Part shown: positions 1 to 6,230 of the stretch, one piece after another | Layout of the letters: every line of letters begins with the position of its first letter | How positions within the stretch are numbered: position 1 is the first letter of the stretch | Assembly (NCBI GenBank): GCA_902801625.1 | Contig: CADCJI010000030.1 | Span: 1-38,094, forward strand | DNA length: 38,094 nt | Source: an uncultured Bacteroidia bacterium | GTDB lineage: Bacteria > Bacteroidota > Bacteroidia > Bacteroidales > F082 | Direction: 5' to 3' | Notes under the pieces: generated by a model | The model's database searches: none | The model's input: only the letters and a program-made list of their open reading frames with translations | What the model was told of the DNA's origin: nothing | Position numbers and translations under genes: made by a program

Positions 1-74
1 GGTTCTTCAAGAAAGCCACAGGCAAGACGTGTACACAATTCCAGCAAGAATACGAGAATGGAACGTTTGAATAA
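1..74 (+). CDS. AraC-family regulator, C-terminal end (partial)
   Basis: The reading frame starting at base 3 gives FFKKATGKTCTQF and stops at TAA 72-74. This is the usual last part of an AraC/XylS DNA-binding domain: the phrase F-F-K-K-x-T-G-x-T/S followed by a P/T-x-x-F/Y stretch is the second helix-turn-helix of the family. Only about 23 residues are in the window, so the sensor domain and target are unknown. It would be the third AraC-type regulator in this 38 kb. Confidence 0.6.
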   Translation, partial: FFKKATGKTCTQFQQEYENGTFE

Positions 75-143
75 CTCTTTTAGGTAAATTTCAATTTATC
101 AGAGTGTTATATGACTTTAATAAAGCATGAGGAAATAATAGAA

Positions 144-755
144 ATGAAAATAGAGAAATTCACGAATGATGACTTTGCTAAAGCAGTACCACTGGCTGCT
201 GGTGCATGGGGAGAGTTTTATGCCGACGAACGGCAGTGGTTTATCGATGCATTGGCAGAGTATATTCTCCGCTACAATTACAGCAATCCCTCGCTGGCCT
301 TGAAGGCCGTGGGCGATGATGGCGTGATTCGTGGGGTGCTGTTTGCCAACTTCCATGACGACAAGGCAGATATCTATCAATGGCGCGAGAACATTGAAGC
401 GCAGATGACCGACCATGAGCGTGAACGCTTCCGTCTTTTGGCCGACTATATGCTGGAGGTTGACAGGAAAACGGTGCAGTGCATGAATGACGGCGAGGTG
501 AAACTATCGCTCTTCATCAGTAATCAGAAAGGCTGTGGAAAGCAGTTGCTGCAGGCTATGATGGATGAGTTCCAGCGCAGAGACCTGCGAAATCTTTACC
601 TTTGGACCGACACCAGTTGCACCCACGAATACTACCCTCAGCATGGTTTCACACTGGTAGGTCAGTTTCTCAGCGAGGTCTATGACTCGTACGCTCCTGG
701 CTATACCACATATATCTATAAGAAAGAGTTTCGATTAAACGAGAACCAAGCGTAA
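144..755 (+). CDS. GNAT-family N-acetyltransferase
   Basis: A protein of about 203 residues with a C-terminal GNAT acetyl-CoA-binding fold. Motif A reads QKGCGKQLLQAMM near residues 128-140, and the typical final strand-helix reads YYPQHGFTLVG near 163-173. The N-terminal part (WGEFYADERQWF) is not diagnostic. The ATG at 144 is preferred over an in-frame ATG at 111 because GAGGAAATAATAGAA lies just upstream and the homologous fold begins MKIEKFTNDD. Such enzymes move an acetyl group from acetyl-CoA to an amine. The substrate here cannot be read from sequence. It stands alone between the AraC fragment and hcp. Confidence 0.8.
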   Translation: MKIEKFTNDDFAKAVPLAAGAWGEFYADERQWFIDALAEYILRYNYSNPSLALKAVGDDGVIRGVLFANFHDDKADIYQWRENIEAQMTDHERERFRLLADYMLEVDRKTVQCMNDGEVKLSLFISNQKGCGKQLLQAMMDEFQRRDLRNLYLWTDTSCTHEYYPQHGFTLVGQFLSEVYDSYAPGYTTYIYKKEFRLNENQA

Positions 756-803
756 TTGATCGCTACAGTTTGAGACCTGATTTACGGATTTTTGTTTTTC
801 ACT

Positions 804-817
804 GTAACATTTGTTAC
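804..817. promoter_or_regulatory. HcpR/Crp-type operator upstream of hcp
   Basis: A perfect palindrome, GTAACA-TT-TGTTAC, lies 22 nt before the TAnnTTTG box of hcp, centred about 40-45 nt before the expected transcript start. This is where a Crp/Fnr activator normally sits. The same 14 bases occur at 3095-3108. Confidence 0.8.
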
Positions 818-839
818 GCTCCAAGTCGTTCCTCGTATG

Positions 840-847
840 TAGTTTTG
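840..847 (+). promoter_or_regulatory. Bacteroidota -7 promoter box of hcp
   Basis: TAGTTTTG matches TAnnTTTG and lies 35 nt before the hcp ATG. No good -33 TTTG box is seen at the usual spacing. The palindrome lies upstream instead, as expected for an activator-dependent promoter. Confidence 0.6.
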
Positions 848-882
848 CAGCAAATTTCACAACTAACCCAACACGCAATACT

Positions 883-2544
883 ATGAACGAGAAAATGTTT
901 TGTTTCCAATGTCAGGAAACCGCCGGATGCGCCGGCTGTAAGATTTCAGGAGTGTGCGGAAAGACTCCACAAGTGGCTCATGCACAAGACCTTTTAATCT
1001 ATGTCCTTAAAGGATTGGGCGTCATCGCCAACCATCACCAGCACGGATGCGGACACGATTATTGCGACTTCCGCAAGAGCATCCACGCCTTTGTGAACGA
1101 CGCGCTGTTCTGCACTATCACCAACGCCAACTTCGACGCGGAGAGCATCTACGCCCGCATCGACAAGGGCTTGGAATTGCGCGAGATGTTCAAAGACCGT
1201 GTGACCAACAAGAAAGGCATCGTGCTCCCGAAACTTGATGTATTGGAATGGAATTGCCCGCGCGAGCAATATGACGAGAAAGCCCTAACCGTCGGCGTGC
1301 TTGCCGAAACCAACGAGGACATCCGCTCGTTGAAAGAGTTGACCATGTACGGCCTCAAAGGTATGGCCGCCTACTTGGAACACGCTGCTCGCCTTGGCCA
1401 AGTCGATGGCGACATCAATGAGTTCATCCTGCAAACCCTTGGCCAATTGGTGACCTGCAACGATGCCAACGAACTCACCGCTCTTGTCCTGAAAACAGGC
1501 GAATGGGGCGTGAAGGCAATGGCACTGCTCGATAAAGCCAACACGACCGCTTACGGTAATCCCGAAATCACCGAGGTGAATATTGGCGTGGGCAACCGTC
1601 CGGGCATCCTCATCAGCGGCCACGACCTCAACGACATTGAGCAACTTTTGGAACAAAGCAAGGACGCTGGCATCGACATCTACACACATAGCGAGATGTT
1701 GCCTGCGCATTATTACCCCAAACTCAAGAAATACAGCCACTTGAAAGGCAATTACGGCAACGCTTGGTGGAAACAACGCGAGGAATTTGAAAGTTTCAAC
1801 GGCCCCATTCTGTTCACCACCAACTGCATCGTGCCGCCTGCGGCCAATGCCACATACAAAGACCGCGTGTTTACCACCAACAGCACAGGTTTCCCGGGTT
1901 GGAAGCACATCCCCGCTGATGCCAACGGCAAAAAGGATTTCAGTGAAATTATCGCTTTGGCCAAGACCTGTCAAGCCCCTAAAGAGATTGAGACGGGCAA
2001 GATTATAGGAGGTTTTGCCCACGAACAGGTGTTTGCCCTTGCCGACAAGGTAGTAGAGGCCGTGAAAAGCGGTGCTATCCGTAAGTTTGTGGTGATGGCG
2101 GGCTGCGACGGTCGCATGAAAAGCCGCGAATACTACACCGAATTTGCCAAGGCCTTGCCCAAGGATTGCGTCATCCTCACGGCAGGTTGCGCCAAGTACA
2201 AGTACAACAAACTTGGCTTGGGCGACATCAATGGCATTCCGCGCGTGTTAGATGCGGGCCAGTGCAACGACAGTTACTCGCTGGCACTCATCGCATTGAA
2301 ACTTAAGGAAGTGTTCGGCTTGGACGACGTAAACCAATTGCCTATCGCGTATAATATCGCTTGGTACGAGCAAAAGGCTGTCATCGTCCTGTTAGCCCTG
2401 CTCAGCCTCGGTGTGAAGAACATCCACCTTGGCCCAACCTTGCCCGCGTTCCTTTCACCGAATGTGGCCAAAGTCTTGGTCGAAAACTTCGGCATTGGCG
2501 GGATTAGTACGGTTGAGGAAGATATGAGAATCTTTGGAATTTAA
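883..2544 (+). CDS. hcp: Hydroxylamine reductase / hybrid cluster protein
   Basis: A full-length Hcp of 553 residues. The N-terminal cysteine motif is [21 protein letters not shown], giving C-x2-C-x8-C-x5-C for the [4Fe-4S] cluster. Further cysteine stretches typical of the hybrid 4Fe-2O-2S cluster follow ([43 protein letters not shown]). Hcp enzymes are cytoplasmic and protect against nitric oxide and related species. Hydroxylamine reduction to ammonia is the classical in-vitro activity. The ATG at 883 is chosen because the conserved MFCFQCQ start follows three residues later. An HcpR-type palindrome precedes it. Its stop overlaps the convergent regulator's stop by 4 nt. Confidence 0.97.
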
Positions 2545-3050
2545 CGCTTCTTGTAGCCTTTTCCATCTTTTGTGATAAGGCCCTCGCTCACCATTTCCGA
2601 AAGCACGCGGCTGAGCGAGGGTCTTGTCGCGCCAAGTTGTTCAGCAGCGGCGGCCACTGAGGTGATGCTGCCGTTGGCTTCGAGGTATTCGATGACGCGG
2701 TTGCGAAGGCTGTTGACGGCGAAGGTGCGCATCTTGCGACTCAGGAAATGGCCTCGTTCGGAGAGAATCCCAAGAAAGGCGCGCAACACGGTCGGCTCCT
2801 GTTGCATAAACTCGAAAAAAGCCTCACGGTTGATATGCCACACGGCGCAATCGGTGAGGGCGGTGACTTCCACAGGGACAACATTATTGTTGGCAAACAG
2901 AAACGCTGGAGCCAGCAACATTGGGGCTTTCAGGTGGTCGACGAGCACCTCAGCGGGATAGTCCTGTCGGCGACAAGGACTTTCGAGCAGACGCTCCAAG
3001 GATTCATCGCTGCATCCTGCAAAGAGTTTGATACGTTTCAGTTCTTCCAT
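2541..3050 (-). CDS. hcpR: Crp/Fnr-family regulator of HcpR type, shortened sensor domain
   Basis: A 169-residue Crp-family protein. Residues 1-95 are a cyclic-nucleotide-binding-like domain ([19 protein letters not shown], then [14 protein letters not shown]). Residues 110-169 are the helix-turn-helix ([19 protein letters not shown]). It lies tail-to-tail with hcp and head-to-head with the DUF2249 operon, and its own promoter region holds the same palindrome as hcp. This context fits HcpR, the regulator of hcp in Porphyromonas and other anaerobes. Family members usually have about 210-230 residues. Here the strands between PCRRQDYP and AEVLVDHL seem to be missing (about 40 residues), with the frame kept. 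Function as HcpR is inference. It may bind DNA without normal sensing. Confidence 0.8.
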
Positions 3051-3068
3051 AACAGTATTTTTTCAGCG

Positions 3069-3076
3069 CAAAAATA
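3069..3076 (-). promoter_or_regulatory. -7 promoter box of the hcpR-like gene
   Basis: Read on the minus strand this is TATTTTTG, 18 nt before the ATG at 3050. The palindrome 3095-3108 lies 18 nt upstream, over the -33 region, which would allow autoregulation. Confidence 0.55.
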
Positions 3077-3094
3077 CGGAAAAAAGCGCCTGAT

Positions 3095-3108
3095 GTAACA
3101 TTTGTTAC
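3095..3108. promoter_or_regulatory. HcpR/Crp-type operator in the divergent promoter region
   Basis: GTAACATTTGTTAC, identical to 804-817. It is 22 nt before the TACTTTTG box of the rightward operon, the same gap as at hcp. It lies between the leftward regulator gene and the rightward operon, so one site could serve both. Confidence 0.8.
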
Positions 3109-3130
3109 GCTTTGCCGCAATGGAAGAAAC

Positions 3131-3138
3131 TACTTTTG
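3131..3138 (+). promoter_or_regulatory. -7 promoter box of the DUF2249 operon
   Basis: TACTTTTG, matching TAnnTTTG, 31 nt before the ATG at 3170. A purine-rich AAAGGAG lies at the expected ribosome-binding position. Confidence 0.6.
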
Positions 3139-3169
3139 TACCATCAAACCAAAGAAAGGAGACGCAACT

Positions 3170-3856
3170 ATGAGTTACAACGATTGGAAAGACAAAACCG
3201 CGAGTTTCAAGAAGATTGACGTGCGCGGCATGCAGGGTAACTTTTTCCCGGGACTGAAAATGCAGGCTGCGAAGATGGCCGTCGGCGAAGGCATGGAAAT
3301 CATCCAAAGTTTTGAGCCGATTCCGCTTTATGAGGTGCTTGAAGACCTTGGTTTCGAGCATTATACTGAAAAGGTGGCCGAGGCCGAATACCACACTTAC
3401 TTCTACCGCGCCCAGATGAAGCAGGCAGAGAAAGACATCCCGATGCGCCCTTACGCCCTCACCAACATGGCATTGATCGATGATGATTTGGCACAAACCG
3501 CTGTCAACTTCTGGGACTTGACCTGGAACGACAGCCGCCGTCATCTGCCATACGAGACACGTTTGTTGCTTTCGCTGGCCAATGCCGTTGGGGCAGGTCG
3601 TATGCGGCAAGCCACCCGCGAGCTGGTGAAGGCCTACATCCACGGCCTCGATTCCGCCGCTTTGGACGATGTGTTTGAACTGCTGGCCTGGAACCAAGGC
3701 ATCGGTTATTTCAGTTCGGAAATCGGGCCTTCCACGCTGTTTCAAGCCTATAAGACCATCAAACAGATGGAGAAGAAAGGCAACAGCCGCGCCGAGATCA
3801 TCGAGGTGCTGAAAGAAAAGTTCACGGAGAAAAATCCCGACATAAAACTAATGTAG
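3170..3856 (+). CDS. DUF2249 / carboxymuconolactone-decarboxylase-like two-domain protein
   Basis: 228 residues. Residues about 10-65 match the DUF2249 pattern (KKIDVRGMQGNFFPGLK, then GEGMEIIQSFEPIPLYEVLEDLGF). Residues about 110-215 are helical and resemble the carboxymuconolactone decarboxylase/AhpD fold (LLLSLANAVGAGRMRQATRELVKAYIHGL, then ELLAWNQGIGYFSSEIG). I see no CxxC of the AhpD peroxidase type. It is the first gene of an operon with DUF1858 and ferredoxin genes behind an HcpR-type operator. A role in nitric oxide or hydroxylamine stress is therefore likely by context. The reaction is unknown. Confidence 0.75.
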   Translation: MSYNDWKDKTASFKKIDVRGMQGNFFPGLKMQAAKMAVGEGMEIIQSFEPIPLYEVLEDLGFEHYTEKVAEAEYHTYFYRAQMKQAEKDIPMRPYALTNMALIDDDLAQTAVNFWDLTWNDSRRHLPYETRLLLSLANAVGAGRMRQATRELVKAYIHGLDSAALDDVFELLAWNQGIGYFSSEIGPSTLFQAYKTIKQMEKKGNSRAEIIEVLKEKFTEKNPDIKLM

Positions 3857-3880
3857 GGACGCATTGAATGCGTCCGTAAC
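3853..3880. repeat. Small palindromic repeat, GACGCA type, copy 1
   Basis: GGACGCATT-G-AATGCGTCC (3857-3875), flanked by GTA and GTAAC. Its left edge supplies the TAG stop of the preceding gene. A related palindrome (AGACGCAC-TGCC-GTGCGTCT) lies at 31807-31831. Both begin GTA-purine-purine and share the GACGCA/TGCGTC core, which suggests a dispersed miniature repeat. Confidence 0.6.
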
Positions 3881-3894
3881 AGAAACGCAATAAT

Positions 3895-4122
3895 ATGGAA
3901 ATCACGAAAGACACCCGTTTAGCCGACCTCATCGCCCAATATCCTTGGCTGAAGACGGAAATGGCAAAAGTGAACGAGAAGTTCAAGATGCTCAACACGC
4001 CCGTCGGCAAAATCATGTTGGGCAAGACTACCATCGCCGAAATGAGCAAGAAGTCGGGGATGGAAGTGGAGGCCATCATCGAGAGAATCAAAGGATTGAT
4101 TAACCAACACATAAACCAATAA
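3895..4122 (+). CDS. DUF1858-domain protein
   Basis: 75 residues, all one domain: ITKDTRLADLIAQYPWLKTEM, then MLNTPVGKIMLGKTTIAEMSKKSGM. This matches DUF1858, a small fold also found at the N-terminus of ScdA/RIC-type di-iron repair proteins and near hybrid-cluster genes. It stands between the DUF2249 protein and the ferredoxin (14 nt before the latter), so co-transcription is likely. There are no cysteines and no metal-binding histidine cluster, so a binding or scaffold role is more likely than catalysis. Function unknown. Confidence 0.8.
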   Translation: MEITKDTRLADLIAQYPWLKTEMAKVNEKFKMLNTPVGKIMLGKTTIAEMSKKSGMEVEAIIERIKGLINQHINQ

Positions 4123-4136
4123 CAGAAAGGAACATC

Positions 4137-4319
4137 ATGAAGTACAAAGTGAATGACAGTTGCATCGGTTGTGGCCTTTGCGAGTCCACCTGCCCCGAAG
4201 TGTTCAGCATCCAAGGTGACGTGGCTGTCGCCATTGAGGACGAAGTGCCAGGGTCGGCAATGGCTTCAGCCGCCGAAGCCAAAGAAGGCTGCCCAGTGGG
4301 AGCCATTGAAGAAGCGTAA
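4137..4319 (+). CDS. Small single-cluster ferredoxin
   Basis: 60 residues. C-I-G-C-G-L-C near the N-terminus plus the C of EGCPVGAI supply four ligands for one [4Fe-4S] cluster, in the manner of short ferredoxins of the Thermotoga type. The second cluster motif of 8Fe ferredoxins is absent. AGAAAGGAACATC before the ATG is a fair ribosome-binding site. As the last gene of the HcpR-type operon it is the likely electron donor for Hcp. A ferredoxin gene beside hcp is a known arrangement (frdX). A strong terminator follows. Confidence 0.88.
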   Translation: MKYKVNDSCIGCGLCESTCPEVFSIQGDVAVAIEDEVPGSAMASAAEAKEGCPVGAIEEA

Positions 4320-4338
4320 CACAAAGTTCTAACAACCC

Positions 4339-4386
4339 AACCGCCGCAAGGTTTTTCTTGACCTTTGCGGCGGTTTTGTTTTTTCA
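4339..4386 (+). terminator. Intrinsic terminator after the ferredoxin gene
   Basis: A GC-rich stem (AACCGCCGCAAGG pairing with CCTTTGCGGCGGTT) with a 10-nt loop, followed by TTGTTTTTT. It ends the DUF2249-DUF1858-ferredoxin transcript. Confidence 0.85.
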
Positions 4387-4402
4387 GATACCGAAAAAAG
4401 CC

Positions 4403-4410
4403 TACCTTTG
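4403..4410 (+). promoter_or_regulatory. -7 promoter box of the ZIP gene
   Basis: TACCTTTG, 26 nt before the ATG at 4437. Confidence 0.5.
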
Positions 4411-4436
4411 CAGTCTAAACTGTTATTACTACCAAT

Positions 4437-4913
4437 ATGGGCACTGCCGTCGGTTTATTGATTCCTTTGTTGGGCACCATGCTCGGTGCGGCCTTCGTCT
4501 TTTTCATGAAGAAAGACATGTCGCCGAGGTTACAGAAATCTTTGCTAGGCTTTGCTTCGGGTGTGATGACAGCCGCTTCGGTTTGGTCGTTGCTCATCCC
4601 TGCCATTGAGATGCGGGCGGAAAGTGGCCATTGGGCGGTATTGCCTGCTGCAATAGGTTTCCTTGCGGGTGTCGGTTTCTTGCTGCTTCTAGATGAACTC
4701 ACGCCACACCTGCACTTAGGTACCGATCAACCTGAGGGACCGCGGTCCAAACTCTCCCGCACAGCGATGTTGGCCTTGGCCGTCACTCTCCACAACCTGC
4801 CCGAGGGCATGGCCGTGGGCGTGGTGTTTGCCGCTGCGTCGCAAGGTGTGCAGGAAAACGAAACAATTGCAACAATTTGTAATATCACGGAATTAAGTAA
4901 TCATTATCAATAA
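4437..4913 (+). pseudogene. Truncated ZIP metal transporter running into a probable HigB C-terminus
   Basis: Residues 1-141 are the first half of a ZIP-family divalent metal transporter, with about four membrane segments and the motif HNLPEGMAVG. ZIP proteins of this type have about 250-270 residues and a second metal motif (H/QNxPEG) in the next helix, which is absent here. After VVFAAASQG the sequence becomes polar (NETIATICNITELSNHYQ) and stops. That tail resembles the end of HigB/RelE-type toxins, and the stop sits 8 nt before the HigA-type antitoxin gene, the normal higB-higA spacing. The simplest reading is a deletion that joined a ZIP 5' part to a higB 3' end in frame. Metal transport is unlikely. 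Confidence 0.7.
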
Positions 4914-4921
4914 ACAGGATT

Positions 4922-5245
4922 ATGAAGACCTTGGAAGCAAATAAAATGGAACCATTTCAGCCTACTCATCCAGGAGAGGTCATCAAAGATGAGATAGAGT
5001 ATCGCGGCATTTCACAAAGAGCTTTGGCTGCTCAGATTGGAGTTTCTTATACCCAATTGAACGAAGTGCTAAATGGCAAGCGCACGCTGAATACCGAAAT
5101 GGCTTTGCTGATTAGTGCCGCGCTCGACATCGATGCCGAACCATTATTGGCTATGCAGATGCGTTATGATGTGATTACAACTCGCCGAAATCAAAGTTTT
5201 GTCAGTCGGCTGAAGTCCATTCGGAAAATCGCTGCTGCCTTTTGA
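4922..5245 (+). CDS. higA: HigA-family antitoxin (XRE helix-turn-helix), orphan
   Basis: 107 residues. The start FQPTHPGEVIKDEIEYRGISQ is the hallmark of HigA antitoxins (HPGEVL/I), followed by the helix-turn-helix RALAAQIGVSYTQLNEVLNGKR. In a complete module it would bind and neutralise the HigB mRNase and repress its own promoter. No intact toxin is upstream, only the probable 15-20 residue remnant at the end of the ZIP chimera, and none is downstream. It may survive as a stand-alone repressor, or protect against related toxins. ATG at 922 of this kilobase could also be replaced by the inner ATG before EPFQPTHPG. Confidence 0.88.
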   Translation: MKTLEANKMEPFQPTHPGEVIKDEIEYRGISQRALAAQIGVSYTQLNEVLNGKRTLNTEMALLISAALDIDAEPLLAMQMRYDVITTRRNQSFVSRLKSIRKIAAAF

Positions 5246-5272
5246 ATTTCCCCGACCAACCTATGCAGAAGC

Positions 5273-5899
5273 TTATTTCTCCGCCGTCACCAACAGCCAG
5301 TGTTTGGCTTCGTCTTTCCGGATGTTGATGCCCTTGAAGCCAGCATTTGATAGATGCAGCCTGATTTCCTCAGGCTTGTAGGTGTGCATTCCCTCAATGA
5401 GGCTTTCCCATTTGGCATCCATCGGACCCGAGCCGTCCGACTCGTTGACGATGACAAATTGTCCTCCGGGTTTGAGCGCCCTTTTCACCTCACCAAAGCA
5501 ATGCTCGATGTCGGGCCAGAAATAGATGGTCTCAAAGGCGGTGACGAGATTGAAGGAGTTCTCTCCGAAAGGCAGTTTGACCACACTGGCCTCCTGCACC
5601 TTACAACGCCCCTCTGCGATGGCCTTGGCGTTCACTTTGGAAGACTTTGCCACCGAAACAGACGAATAGTCGATGCCTTGCACCACGCCTTTCGGGGCGC
5701 GTTGCAACAGCCGAGCGATGTTGGCGCCACCGCCGCAGCCGATATCCAAGATTTGGCCGTCTTCCTTGATTTGCACCGACGACAAGGCCCAGTTGGCCAT
5801 TTGGGCGTGACCGCCGCCGTTCATTCCGTTCACCATCATTTTGCCGAAGAAGCCTTCGGGCTTGCGCGTATTGCTGAAAATCTTGCTAAGTAATCCCAT
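5273..5899 (-). CDS. Class I SAM-dependent methyltransferase
   Basis: 208 residues. The SAM-binding motif I is ILDIGCGGGAN near residues 50-60, followed by an acidic end of strand 2 (GIDYS), a post-I stretch VVKLPFGENSFNLVTAFETIYFW, and KRALKPGGQFVIVNE. This is the Methyltransf_11/UbiE-like group. The substrate is unknown. It is a single gene on the minus strand, with its 3' end facing the HigA gene 27 nt away. The N-terminal MGLLSKIFSNTRKPEGFFGK is slightly basic and amphipathic, not a signal peptide. Confidence 0.85.
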   Translation of the reverse strand: MGLLSKIFSNTRKPEGFFGKMMVNGMNGGGHAQMANWALSSVQIKEDGQILDIGCGGGANIARLLQRAPKGVVQGIDYSSVSVAKSSKVNAKAIAEGRCKVQEASVVKLPFGENSFNLVTAFETIYFWPDIEHCFGEVKRALKPGGQFVIVNESDGSGPMDAKWESLIEGMHTYKPEEIRLHLSNAGFKGINIRKDEAKHWLLVTAEK

Positions 5900-6230
5900 A
5901 AGTAACTAATTAAATTTAAACTACATGTTTTTTGACGCGGGACACGGGACTTCAGGACTTTTTGACCATGACCATGACCGCTTTCACGGGAATGCTGAAA
6001 TCTCAGCCCTTGGCCGAAACAGTCATGGTCATAGTCACAAGTCATAGTCCCGTAATCTCGCGTCCAATATGTAAACTAAATAAACCCATTCACTTAATAA
6101 GTGCTGTGATTAATTCAGCTGCAAAAATCCGACGCTTTGCCCTATCGCTACAATCCCAAAAAATAGTGATTTTTTCGACCATAAATCATCATTGGCTTGT
6201 CAAACAAAATCCTTCTAATTCGATATTTTT
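5900..6230. other. Intergenic stretch without a supported gene
   Basis: Between the leftward methyltransferase and the rightward membrane ferredoxin. It holds the long imperfect inverted repeat 5944-6053 and then an AT-rich promoter region. The open frames that cross it have no recognisable protein features. Confidence 0.6.
5944..6053. repeat. Imperfect inverted repeat, arms of about 33 nt
   Basis: The left arm 5944-5978 (starting ACGGGACTTC, ending GACCATGACCATGAC) pairs with the right arm 6022-6053 (starting GTCATGGTCATAGTCAC, ending AGTCCCGT). There are a few mismatches and a 43-nt loop. It may be a decayed miniature transposable element or a long intergenic hairpin. Confidence 0.65.

Follow-up and report, generated by a model that had tools for sequence, protein, structure and literature searches.

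What does a Crp/Fnr-type regulator control when its gene lies between hcp, the gene for the hybrid cluster protein, and a small operon encoding proteins of the DUF2249, DUF1858 and ferredoxin families? We address this question for a stretch of 38,094 nucleotides (the window) of contig CADCJI010000030.1, from assembly GCA_902801625.1 of an uncultured Bacteroidia bacterium (Bacteroidales, F082), a rumen-type gut bacterium whose draft genome comprises 3.58 Mb in 62 contigs and is 84% complete by estimate. An earlier note, made from the sequence of the window alone, had proposed that two identical 14-bp palindromes, placed at the same distance from two promoters, define a local HcpR regulon of hcp and the DUF2249 operon. 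Our analysis points, with a probability of roughly 80%, to a two-promoter regulon of the HcpR2 type in which hcp and the DUF2249 operon would be co-controlled across the clade; co-control in this particular genome is uncertain. The proposed local regulon therefore stood in part: the box fits the HcpR2 motif, the regulator has the RPSLSR helix, and the extension to the DUF2249 operon is conserved, but the regulator is gapped here.

The genes that the earlier note had placed behind the boxes, and the regulator gene in between, are upheld by Pfam and NCBIfam matches. The product of hcp (883..2544, plus strand; 553 residues) matches the prismane family over its full length (Pfam Prismane, 4e-177; NCBIfam hydroxylamine reductase, 2.3e-248). 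The regulator gene, which we call hcpR (2541..3050, minus strand; 169 residues), is convergent with hcp and overlaps its end by four bases. Divergent from hcpR are genes for a DUF2249 protein (3170..3856, plus strand; 228 residues, longer than the Pfam domain; Pfam DUF2249, 3.1e-7), a DUF1858 protein (3895..4122, plus strand; 75 residues; Pfam, 1.4e-8) and a 4Fe-4S ferredoxin (4137..4319, plus strand; 60 residues; Pfam Fer4_13, 4.4e-13), separated by 38 and 14 nucleotides. The DUF2249 family is presumably the same as COG4309. HcpR in studied relatives is a heme-dependent sensor of nitric oxide (NO), and the literature agrees that HcpR controls hcp in other anaerobes (PMC13370916, PMC12915319, PMC1274295). 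In B. thetaiotaomicron hcp needs HcpR (PMC13370916), in C. difficile the induction by NO of hcp and of the ferredoxin-like gene frdX needs it (PMC12915319), and HcpR regulons also contain ferredoxin-, hemerythrin- and cytochrome-like genes (PMC1274295).

The two sites lie at 804..817, upstream of hcp, and at 3095..3108, upstream of the DUF2249 gene (both plus strand). Re-reading of the coordinates confirmed that each precedes by exactly 22 nucleotides a match to TAnnTTTG, the −7 consensus of Bacteroidota promoters (PMC7366714): TAGTTTTG (840..847, plus strand) for hcp and TACTTTTG (3131..3138, plus strand) for the DUF2249 operon. The two are identical as claimed, but the 14-mer, GTAACATTTGTTAC, is not a full palindrome; it is an inverted repeat with perfect six-nucleotide arms (GTAACA and TGTTAC) around a two-nucleotide centre (TT) that is imperfect, so that the reverse strand shows two mismatches. 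It fits the published HcpR2 box GTAACnnnnGTTAC upstream of hcp (PMC1274295), and we regard both sites as predicted HcpR2-type boxes. The second is predicted to be common to the DUF2249 operon and the divergent hcpR: on the minus strand it lies 18 nucleotides from TATTTTTG (3069..3076, minus strand), the −7 element of hcpR, and if that element is centred at −7 the box covers the −33 area of the hcpR promoter, as had been suggested.

The exact 14-mer occurs twice in the whole draft (3,577,460 bases), both times in the window, for an estimated random expectation of about 0.03, and is thus not scattered at random places in the genome. What is non-random is the placement: both boxes precede a TAnnTTTG element by 22 nucleotides, and one of them lies upstream of hcp. 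A genome-wide scan for this geometry (core, 22 nucleotides, TAnnTTTG; at most two mismatches) returned three matches, the two perfect sites of the window and a third with two mismatches that is unconvincing; a reversed control pattern returned six. As an observation apart from the boxes themselves, A/T-rich tracts lie immediately upstream of both (784..803 and 3075..3094), and most of the 13 divergent promoters described below likewise contain tracts of A or T; these may be an UP-type element.

Is the box a constant companion of the DUF2249 operon? The search for the palindrome in related genomes that the earlier note had proposed shows that the box recurs in Bacteroidales, upstream both of this operon and of hcp. 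Genome contigs were scanned with the DUF2249 alignment, and the best 80 of 236 related loci were examined. Judged by record titles, many of which are of metagenome-assembled genomes (MAGs), 27 of these (L142–L168; titled Bacteroidales, Bacteroidia, Bacteroidetes or "bacterium F082") belong to Bacteroidales and 53 to Firmicutes, Chloroflexi, actinobacteria, spirochaetes and a planctomycete. Without exception, the 27 Bacteroidales loci have the box within 94 nucleotides upstream of the DUF2249 gene (26 exactly, L163 with one mismatch) and a TAnnTTTG-like element 22 nucleotides from it (25 strictly, L162 and L163 with one mismatch). A box with at most one mismatch was found in none of the 53 loci of other phyla in the 250 nucleotides upstream of the gene. 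Every Bacteroidales locus of the 27 has a DUF1858 gene, and 20 have a recognizable ferredoxin, some contigs ending early. Likewise, within the genus, the nine full-length DUF2249 genes found in a search of 60 genomes are all preceded by the box at the 22-nucleotide spacing.

Fifteen of the 27 loci are near-identical kin; the other 12 and the window make up a set of 13 divergent promoters. In these, column identity averages 99% in the box arms, 55% in the 22-nucleotide spacer and 100% in TTTG, a contrast between arms and spacer that was reached by none of 100,000 random column draws. Conservation of the arms beside a diverged spacer points to selection on the pattern, not to recent descent. Moreover, the box stays with the operon at loci where hcpR is not adjacent (L159, L160, L165 and L168). 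Taken with the differently arranged loci of other families considered below, the 27 conserved boxes bear out the extension of the regulon to the DUF2249 operon. A separate observation concerns the DUF2249 protein, which is 74–79% identical across the 53 loci of other phyla (L169–L221), whose Firmicutes are from rumen and mouth; this suggests wide horizontal transfer of the gene, with binning errors possible behind the MAG titles.

The spacing of box and promoter recurs throughout the order. Among 393 genomes, the pattern of box, 16 to 30 nucleotides and TAnnTTTG gave 133 matches in 92 genomes, with 74 spacers of 22, 13 of 18 and 12 of 23 nucleotides, where a uniform spread would give about nine per length; the genomes are related, and the peak is reported without a formal probability. 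Outside the genus, 67 of 123 matches have a spacer of exactly 22. For at least 40 of the 133 matches, from no fewer than 37 of the 92 genomes, an hcp gene follows on the same strand within 2.5 kb, and in 34 of these the spacer is 22 nucleotides; the figures are lower bounds, as they come from 43 hcp places on box-bearing contigs that were picked out by eye. We also examined 41 distinct boxes by an hcpR-like gene, a set that includes close kin and from which boxes with less than 42 nucleotides of flank on either side were dropped. On the side facing away from hcpR, 37 have a strict TAnnTTTG, invariably at 22 nucleotides; on the hcpR side 30 have one, at 17–19 nucleotides in 25. With the −7 element placed at −7, the centre of the box falls at about −40 for the targets and at about −36 or −37 for hcpR. 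Such a difference is consistent with class II activation at the targets and with another effect, probably restraint, at hcpR.

How is hcp itself arranged? In the 27 Bacteroidales loci, sixteen hcp genes have a readable 5′ end (the hcp of L153, whose 5′ end is missing, was excluded), and 12 of them have their own box at the 22-nucleotide spacing. The remaining four (L162, L166, L167 and L168) have no box of their own and lie downstream of a boxed DUF2249 gene on the same strand. Further rearrangements occur in other families. One genome (G085) has, in order, hcpR, box, a gene for a 62-residue ferredoxin, one for a 567-residue protein, and hcp, and in this long protein, the one of four long DUF2249 proteins of other families on which Pfam was run, DUF1858, two DUF2249 domains and an NMT1-like part are joined. 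A second (G226) has box, ferredoxin, a 569-residue protein and hcp, with no match to hcpR in the stretch read. A third (G311) has hcpR, box, ferredoxin and a 568-residue protein, and a second box before a 307-residue 4Fe-4S protein and hcp; a fourth (G118) has hcpR, box, DUF2249 and hcp. In a few Firmicutes, too, hcp follows the DUF2249 gene (L171, L194 and L205). The recurrence of the same parts in different families is the best evidence that they may work together.

Two observations on boxed genes are recorded here in their own right. Proteins of about 300 residues with 4Fe-4S motifs are encoded beside a box at L225 (2464–3384) and L236 (1322–2218), in G311 before hcp; they are possibly FrdX-like, and such genes may account for the many boxes about 1 kb upstream of hcp. 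In G217 an HcpR2 box (L237, 1024–1037) with TAnnTTTG at 22 nucleotides on both strands precedes a gene for a NapC/NirT-type (nrfH-like) cytochrome, which is consistent with control of nitrite reductase.

As for the regulator, its recognition helix reads RPSLSR, as it does in all 14 homologues from named records that were aligned with the window (15 of 15 sequences), and its DNA-binding half is complete and modelled well. By the register of the CRP helix, the proline of this motif would be position 181. The motif GTAACnnnnGTTAC was derived from the hcp promoters of HcpR2 genomes and was tied to a recognition helix in which proline replaces Glu181 (Rodionov 2005, PMC1274295). The proline of the window regulator is also in register with the contacts Pro187, Ser188 and Arg191 modelled for B. 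thetaiotaomicron HcpR (PMC13370916). Its Crp-type helix-turn-helix and helix proline support classification of the regulator as HcpR2 type. The best match of the HcpR family profile in the PDB is 9day; its letters agree with a mutagenesis primer quoted in PMC12750200, and on this ground we identify it with the P. gingivalis HcpR studied there.

Several observations weigh against the co-control of hcp and the DUF2249 operon, either across the order or in this genome. The core GTAACnnnnGTTAC alone is not enriched: it occurs exactly at the same two places and at 39 more with one mismatch, and because about three random exact matches are expected by estimate, which is near the number seen, its count proves nothing by itself. 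Among the nine full-length DUF2249 homologues in the 393 order genomes, five are boxed (G000, G033, G155, G118 and G255), G118 and G255 with one mismatch in the −7 element, and four (G042, G108, G117 and G221) have no box with at most two mismatches in the 300 nucleotides upstream; the link between box and DUF2249 is therefore common, not universal. One genome (G236) keeps the box with the operon gone, and another (G024) keeps it with most of the DUF2249 gene deleted. In the stretches of G034 that were read there is neither a box nor a DUF2249 match, hcpR is frameshifted, and the start of hcp is off the contig. Many of the genomes compared are, moreover, close kin, and the counts are not counts of independent events.

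The remaining points of this kind concern the window regulator. It has only 169 residues, where the match span of its relatives is 195–201, because 96 nucleotides (32 codons) are missing in frame; two alignments, one of 16 members of the genus, the window among them, and one of 15 sequences (the window and its 14 homologues), place the junction at 2951..2952 (minus strand). The gap takes out alignment columns 34–65, which hold much of the sensor domain and most of the neighbouring flap. Column 59, a methionine in 14 of 14 relatives, lies within it and aligns with Met68 of P. gingivalis HcpR, the loss of which reduces hcp expression to less than 10% (PMC12750200). The match to cNMP_binding reaches 23.6 bits, under the cut-off of 27.5, the beta-roll of the sensor being incomplete, and in an AlphaFold2 model of the gapped protein alone the predicted local distance difference test score (pLDDT) is below 50 for residues 25–72. 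Of seven HTH_Crp_2 matches in the assembly, the one above the Pfam cut-off is this gapped protein itself, so a working HcpR regulon in this genome is not assured. Lesions of hcpR and of its neighbourhood are also of interest in themselves. Three of the 16 aligned genus members have three different lesions in the sensor half: the 96-nucleotide in-frame gap of the window, a 48-nucleotide in-frame gap in G003 (L153) and the frameshift in G034. In G034, next to the frameshifted gene, hcp (L223, 3590–4776) seems split into two open frames where the contig ends, and the module as a whole looks to be decaying.

Three readings of the gap remain: an assembly error, a recent loss of function and an HcpR that works without its heme pocket. 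That the gap has destroyed HcpR in this genome, although not in the clade, leaving boxes not yet eroded and hcp and the operon uninducible or at a basal level, is a possibility we take seriously while placing it short of even odds. The 32 missing effector-domain residues, among them the counterpart of Met68 and the greater part of the flap, the low confidence for what remains of the sensor, the different lesions elsewhere in the genus and the lack of a second above-cut-off HTH_Crp_2 match all speak for it, whereas both boxes are perfect and the reading frame is kept. The rest of hcpR and its counterpart in L152 are separated by 15 synonymous and 3 non-synonymous codon differences, which resembles the pattern among four intact relatives and shows no sign of relaxed constraint; a recent loss would, however, look alike. 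That the gap is instead an error of assembly, HcpR being normal here, we consider doubtful. The genome is indeed a fragmented and incomplete draft, and the gap is absent from 24 of 24 other full-span hcpR genes in L142–L168 (23 with matches of 195–201 residues, L153 with 185; L167 is cut by a contig end, and L154 and L161 show no hcpR), but its flanks are clean, it preserves the frame, and different gaps are seen in other genomes.

Two further alternatives concern the boxes. Because the second box of the window sits between two divergent genes, it might serve the autoregulation of hcpR only, its place before the DUF2249 operon being a by-product of divergence. This is very improbable: the 22 nucleotides to the −7 element of the operon are kept in the four loci where hcpR lies elsewhere, and it is the spacing on the hcpR side that drifts. 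Least probable of all is that the inverted repeats are RNA elements and not protein sites, an idea for which the locus of the SnoA antisense RNA in the B. thetaiotaomicron hcp promoter (PMC13370916) offers a precedent. Against it, the repeats precede the predicted starts, positions 1–6000 of the window have no Rfam match, and conservation is highest at the box and the −7 element.

For the two-promoter HcpR2 regulon, then, we infer binding, activation, the NO signal, autoregulation and partner function along the following lines from sequence, geometry and conservation. A dimer of HcpR would bind GTAACnnnnGTTAC at a fixed position, with the centre of the box near −40, and, like a class II Crp activator, would recruit RNA polymerase to promoters with a TAnnTTTG −7 element. 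One box would switch on hcp and the other the little-studied DUF2249-DUF1858-ferredoxin operon, and thus the detoxifying enzyme Hcp and its iron–sulfur or electron-transfer partners would appear together under nitrosative stress. At the second box, whose geometry toward hcpR is less fixed (mostly 17–19 nucleotides), HcpR probably limits or adjusts its own production. Given the gap in its sensor, the circuit is possibly blind to NO, or dead, in this genome.

How does this module compare with systems already described? The closest is the HcpR2 regulon of Bacteroides, clostridia and Thermotogales (Rodionov 2005, PMC1274295), which the window resembles in the motif GTAACnnnnGTTAC, in the helix signature and in having the regulator beside hcp; it differs in having a second operon and a gapped sensor, whereas the HcpR2 regulons of most Bacteroides species comprise hcp genes only, according to that paper. 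In the hcpR-frdX-hcp arrangement of Clostridioides difficile and Desulfovibrio (PMC12915319, PMC1274295), as is predicted for the window, hcp and a ferredoxin-like gene are under HcpR. By its Pfam match the window operon has a ferredoxin gene behind an HcpR-type box, a candidate counterpart of frdX, but the ferredoxin here is a 60-residue, single-cluster protein, and its gene follows those for DUF2249 and DUF1858 in an operon apart from hcp. With P. gingivalis and B. thetaiotaomicron HcpR (PMC12750200, PMC13370916) the window protein shares the predicted character of a Crp/Fnr-type NO regulator of hcp; unlike P. gingivalis HcpR, it lacks about residues 43–74 (counted from the alignment), Met68 among them.

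The DUF2249 and DUF1858 families, for their part, have been met near nitrogen oxides before. DUF2249 genes occur in nitrate or denitrification clusters of Thermus (DrpA/DrpB; PMC6282519) and Haloferax (PMC11218638), COG4309 occurs in NnrR and NsrR regulons (PMC1274295), and in Bradyrhizobium a DUF1858 gene beside nnrR has an NnrR box and depends strongly on NnrR (PMC6710368). These cases resemble the window in having DUF2249 or DUF1858 domains, some of them fused, in nitrate, denitrification or NO regulons, and differ from it in regulator and gene set; on their account a connection of both families with nitrogen oxides, through different regulators, was on record. In the open-licence papers searched, we found none that places DUF2249 or DUF1858 genes under HcpR. 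As far as our searches reach, then, the box and the regulator are known, and new are the predicted HcpR control of DUF2249 and DUF1858 genes, the fixed geometry and the gapped sensor.

What might the products of the operon do? The AlphaFold2 model of the DUF2249 protein has a mean pLDDT of 76.9, and structure matches, with modest support, suggest an N-terminal domain that is TusA/SirA-like and a C-terminal helical domain like carboxymuconolactone decarboxylase/AhpD. The window protein has no cysteine, which makes an AhpD-like role as a thiol peroxidase unlikely. We offer, as a speculation that we think rather unlikely to be right in full, that the three products of the operon (DUF2249/AhpD-like, DUF1858 and ferredoxin) make up the partner system so far missing for Hcp in anaerobes that have no Hcr (a state that we assume here), feeding electrons to Hcp or rebuilding its cluster under NO. 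Separate boxed genes, one operon with hcp, and a DUF1858-DUF2249-DUF2249 protein with ferredoxin and hcp would then be packagings of one machine, and HcpR here would no longer need its heme pocket.

The operon probably ends at a strong hairpin with a T-rich 3′ side (4331..4380, plus strand; fold −26.8 kcal/mol, z −6.1), which a simple terminator scan with a loop limit of 8 had passed over. Beyond it are a zupT-like gene (4437–4913), whose product of 158 residues, against 258 in G034, looks truncated, the match ending at residue 140, and a gene for a HigA-type antitoxin (4922–5245).

Finally, we note what a regulon of this kind would mean for Bacteroidales. The rule of box, 22 nucleotides and TAnnTTTG is usable for finding HcpR targets in the order, and an HcpR with a gapped sensor is a natural case for asking what the heme pocket does. 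Since the DUF2249 operon accompanies hcp and the box in several Bacteroidales families, and lies beside hcp in some Firmicutes, its products are named candidates for the reduction or upkeep of Hcp in strict anaerobes.

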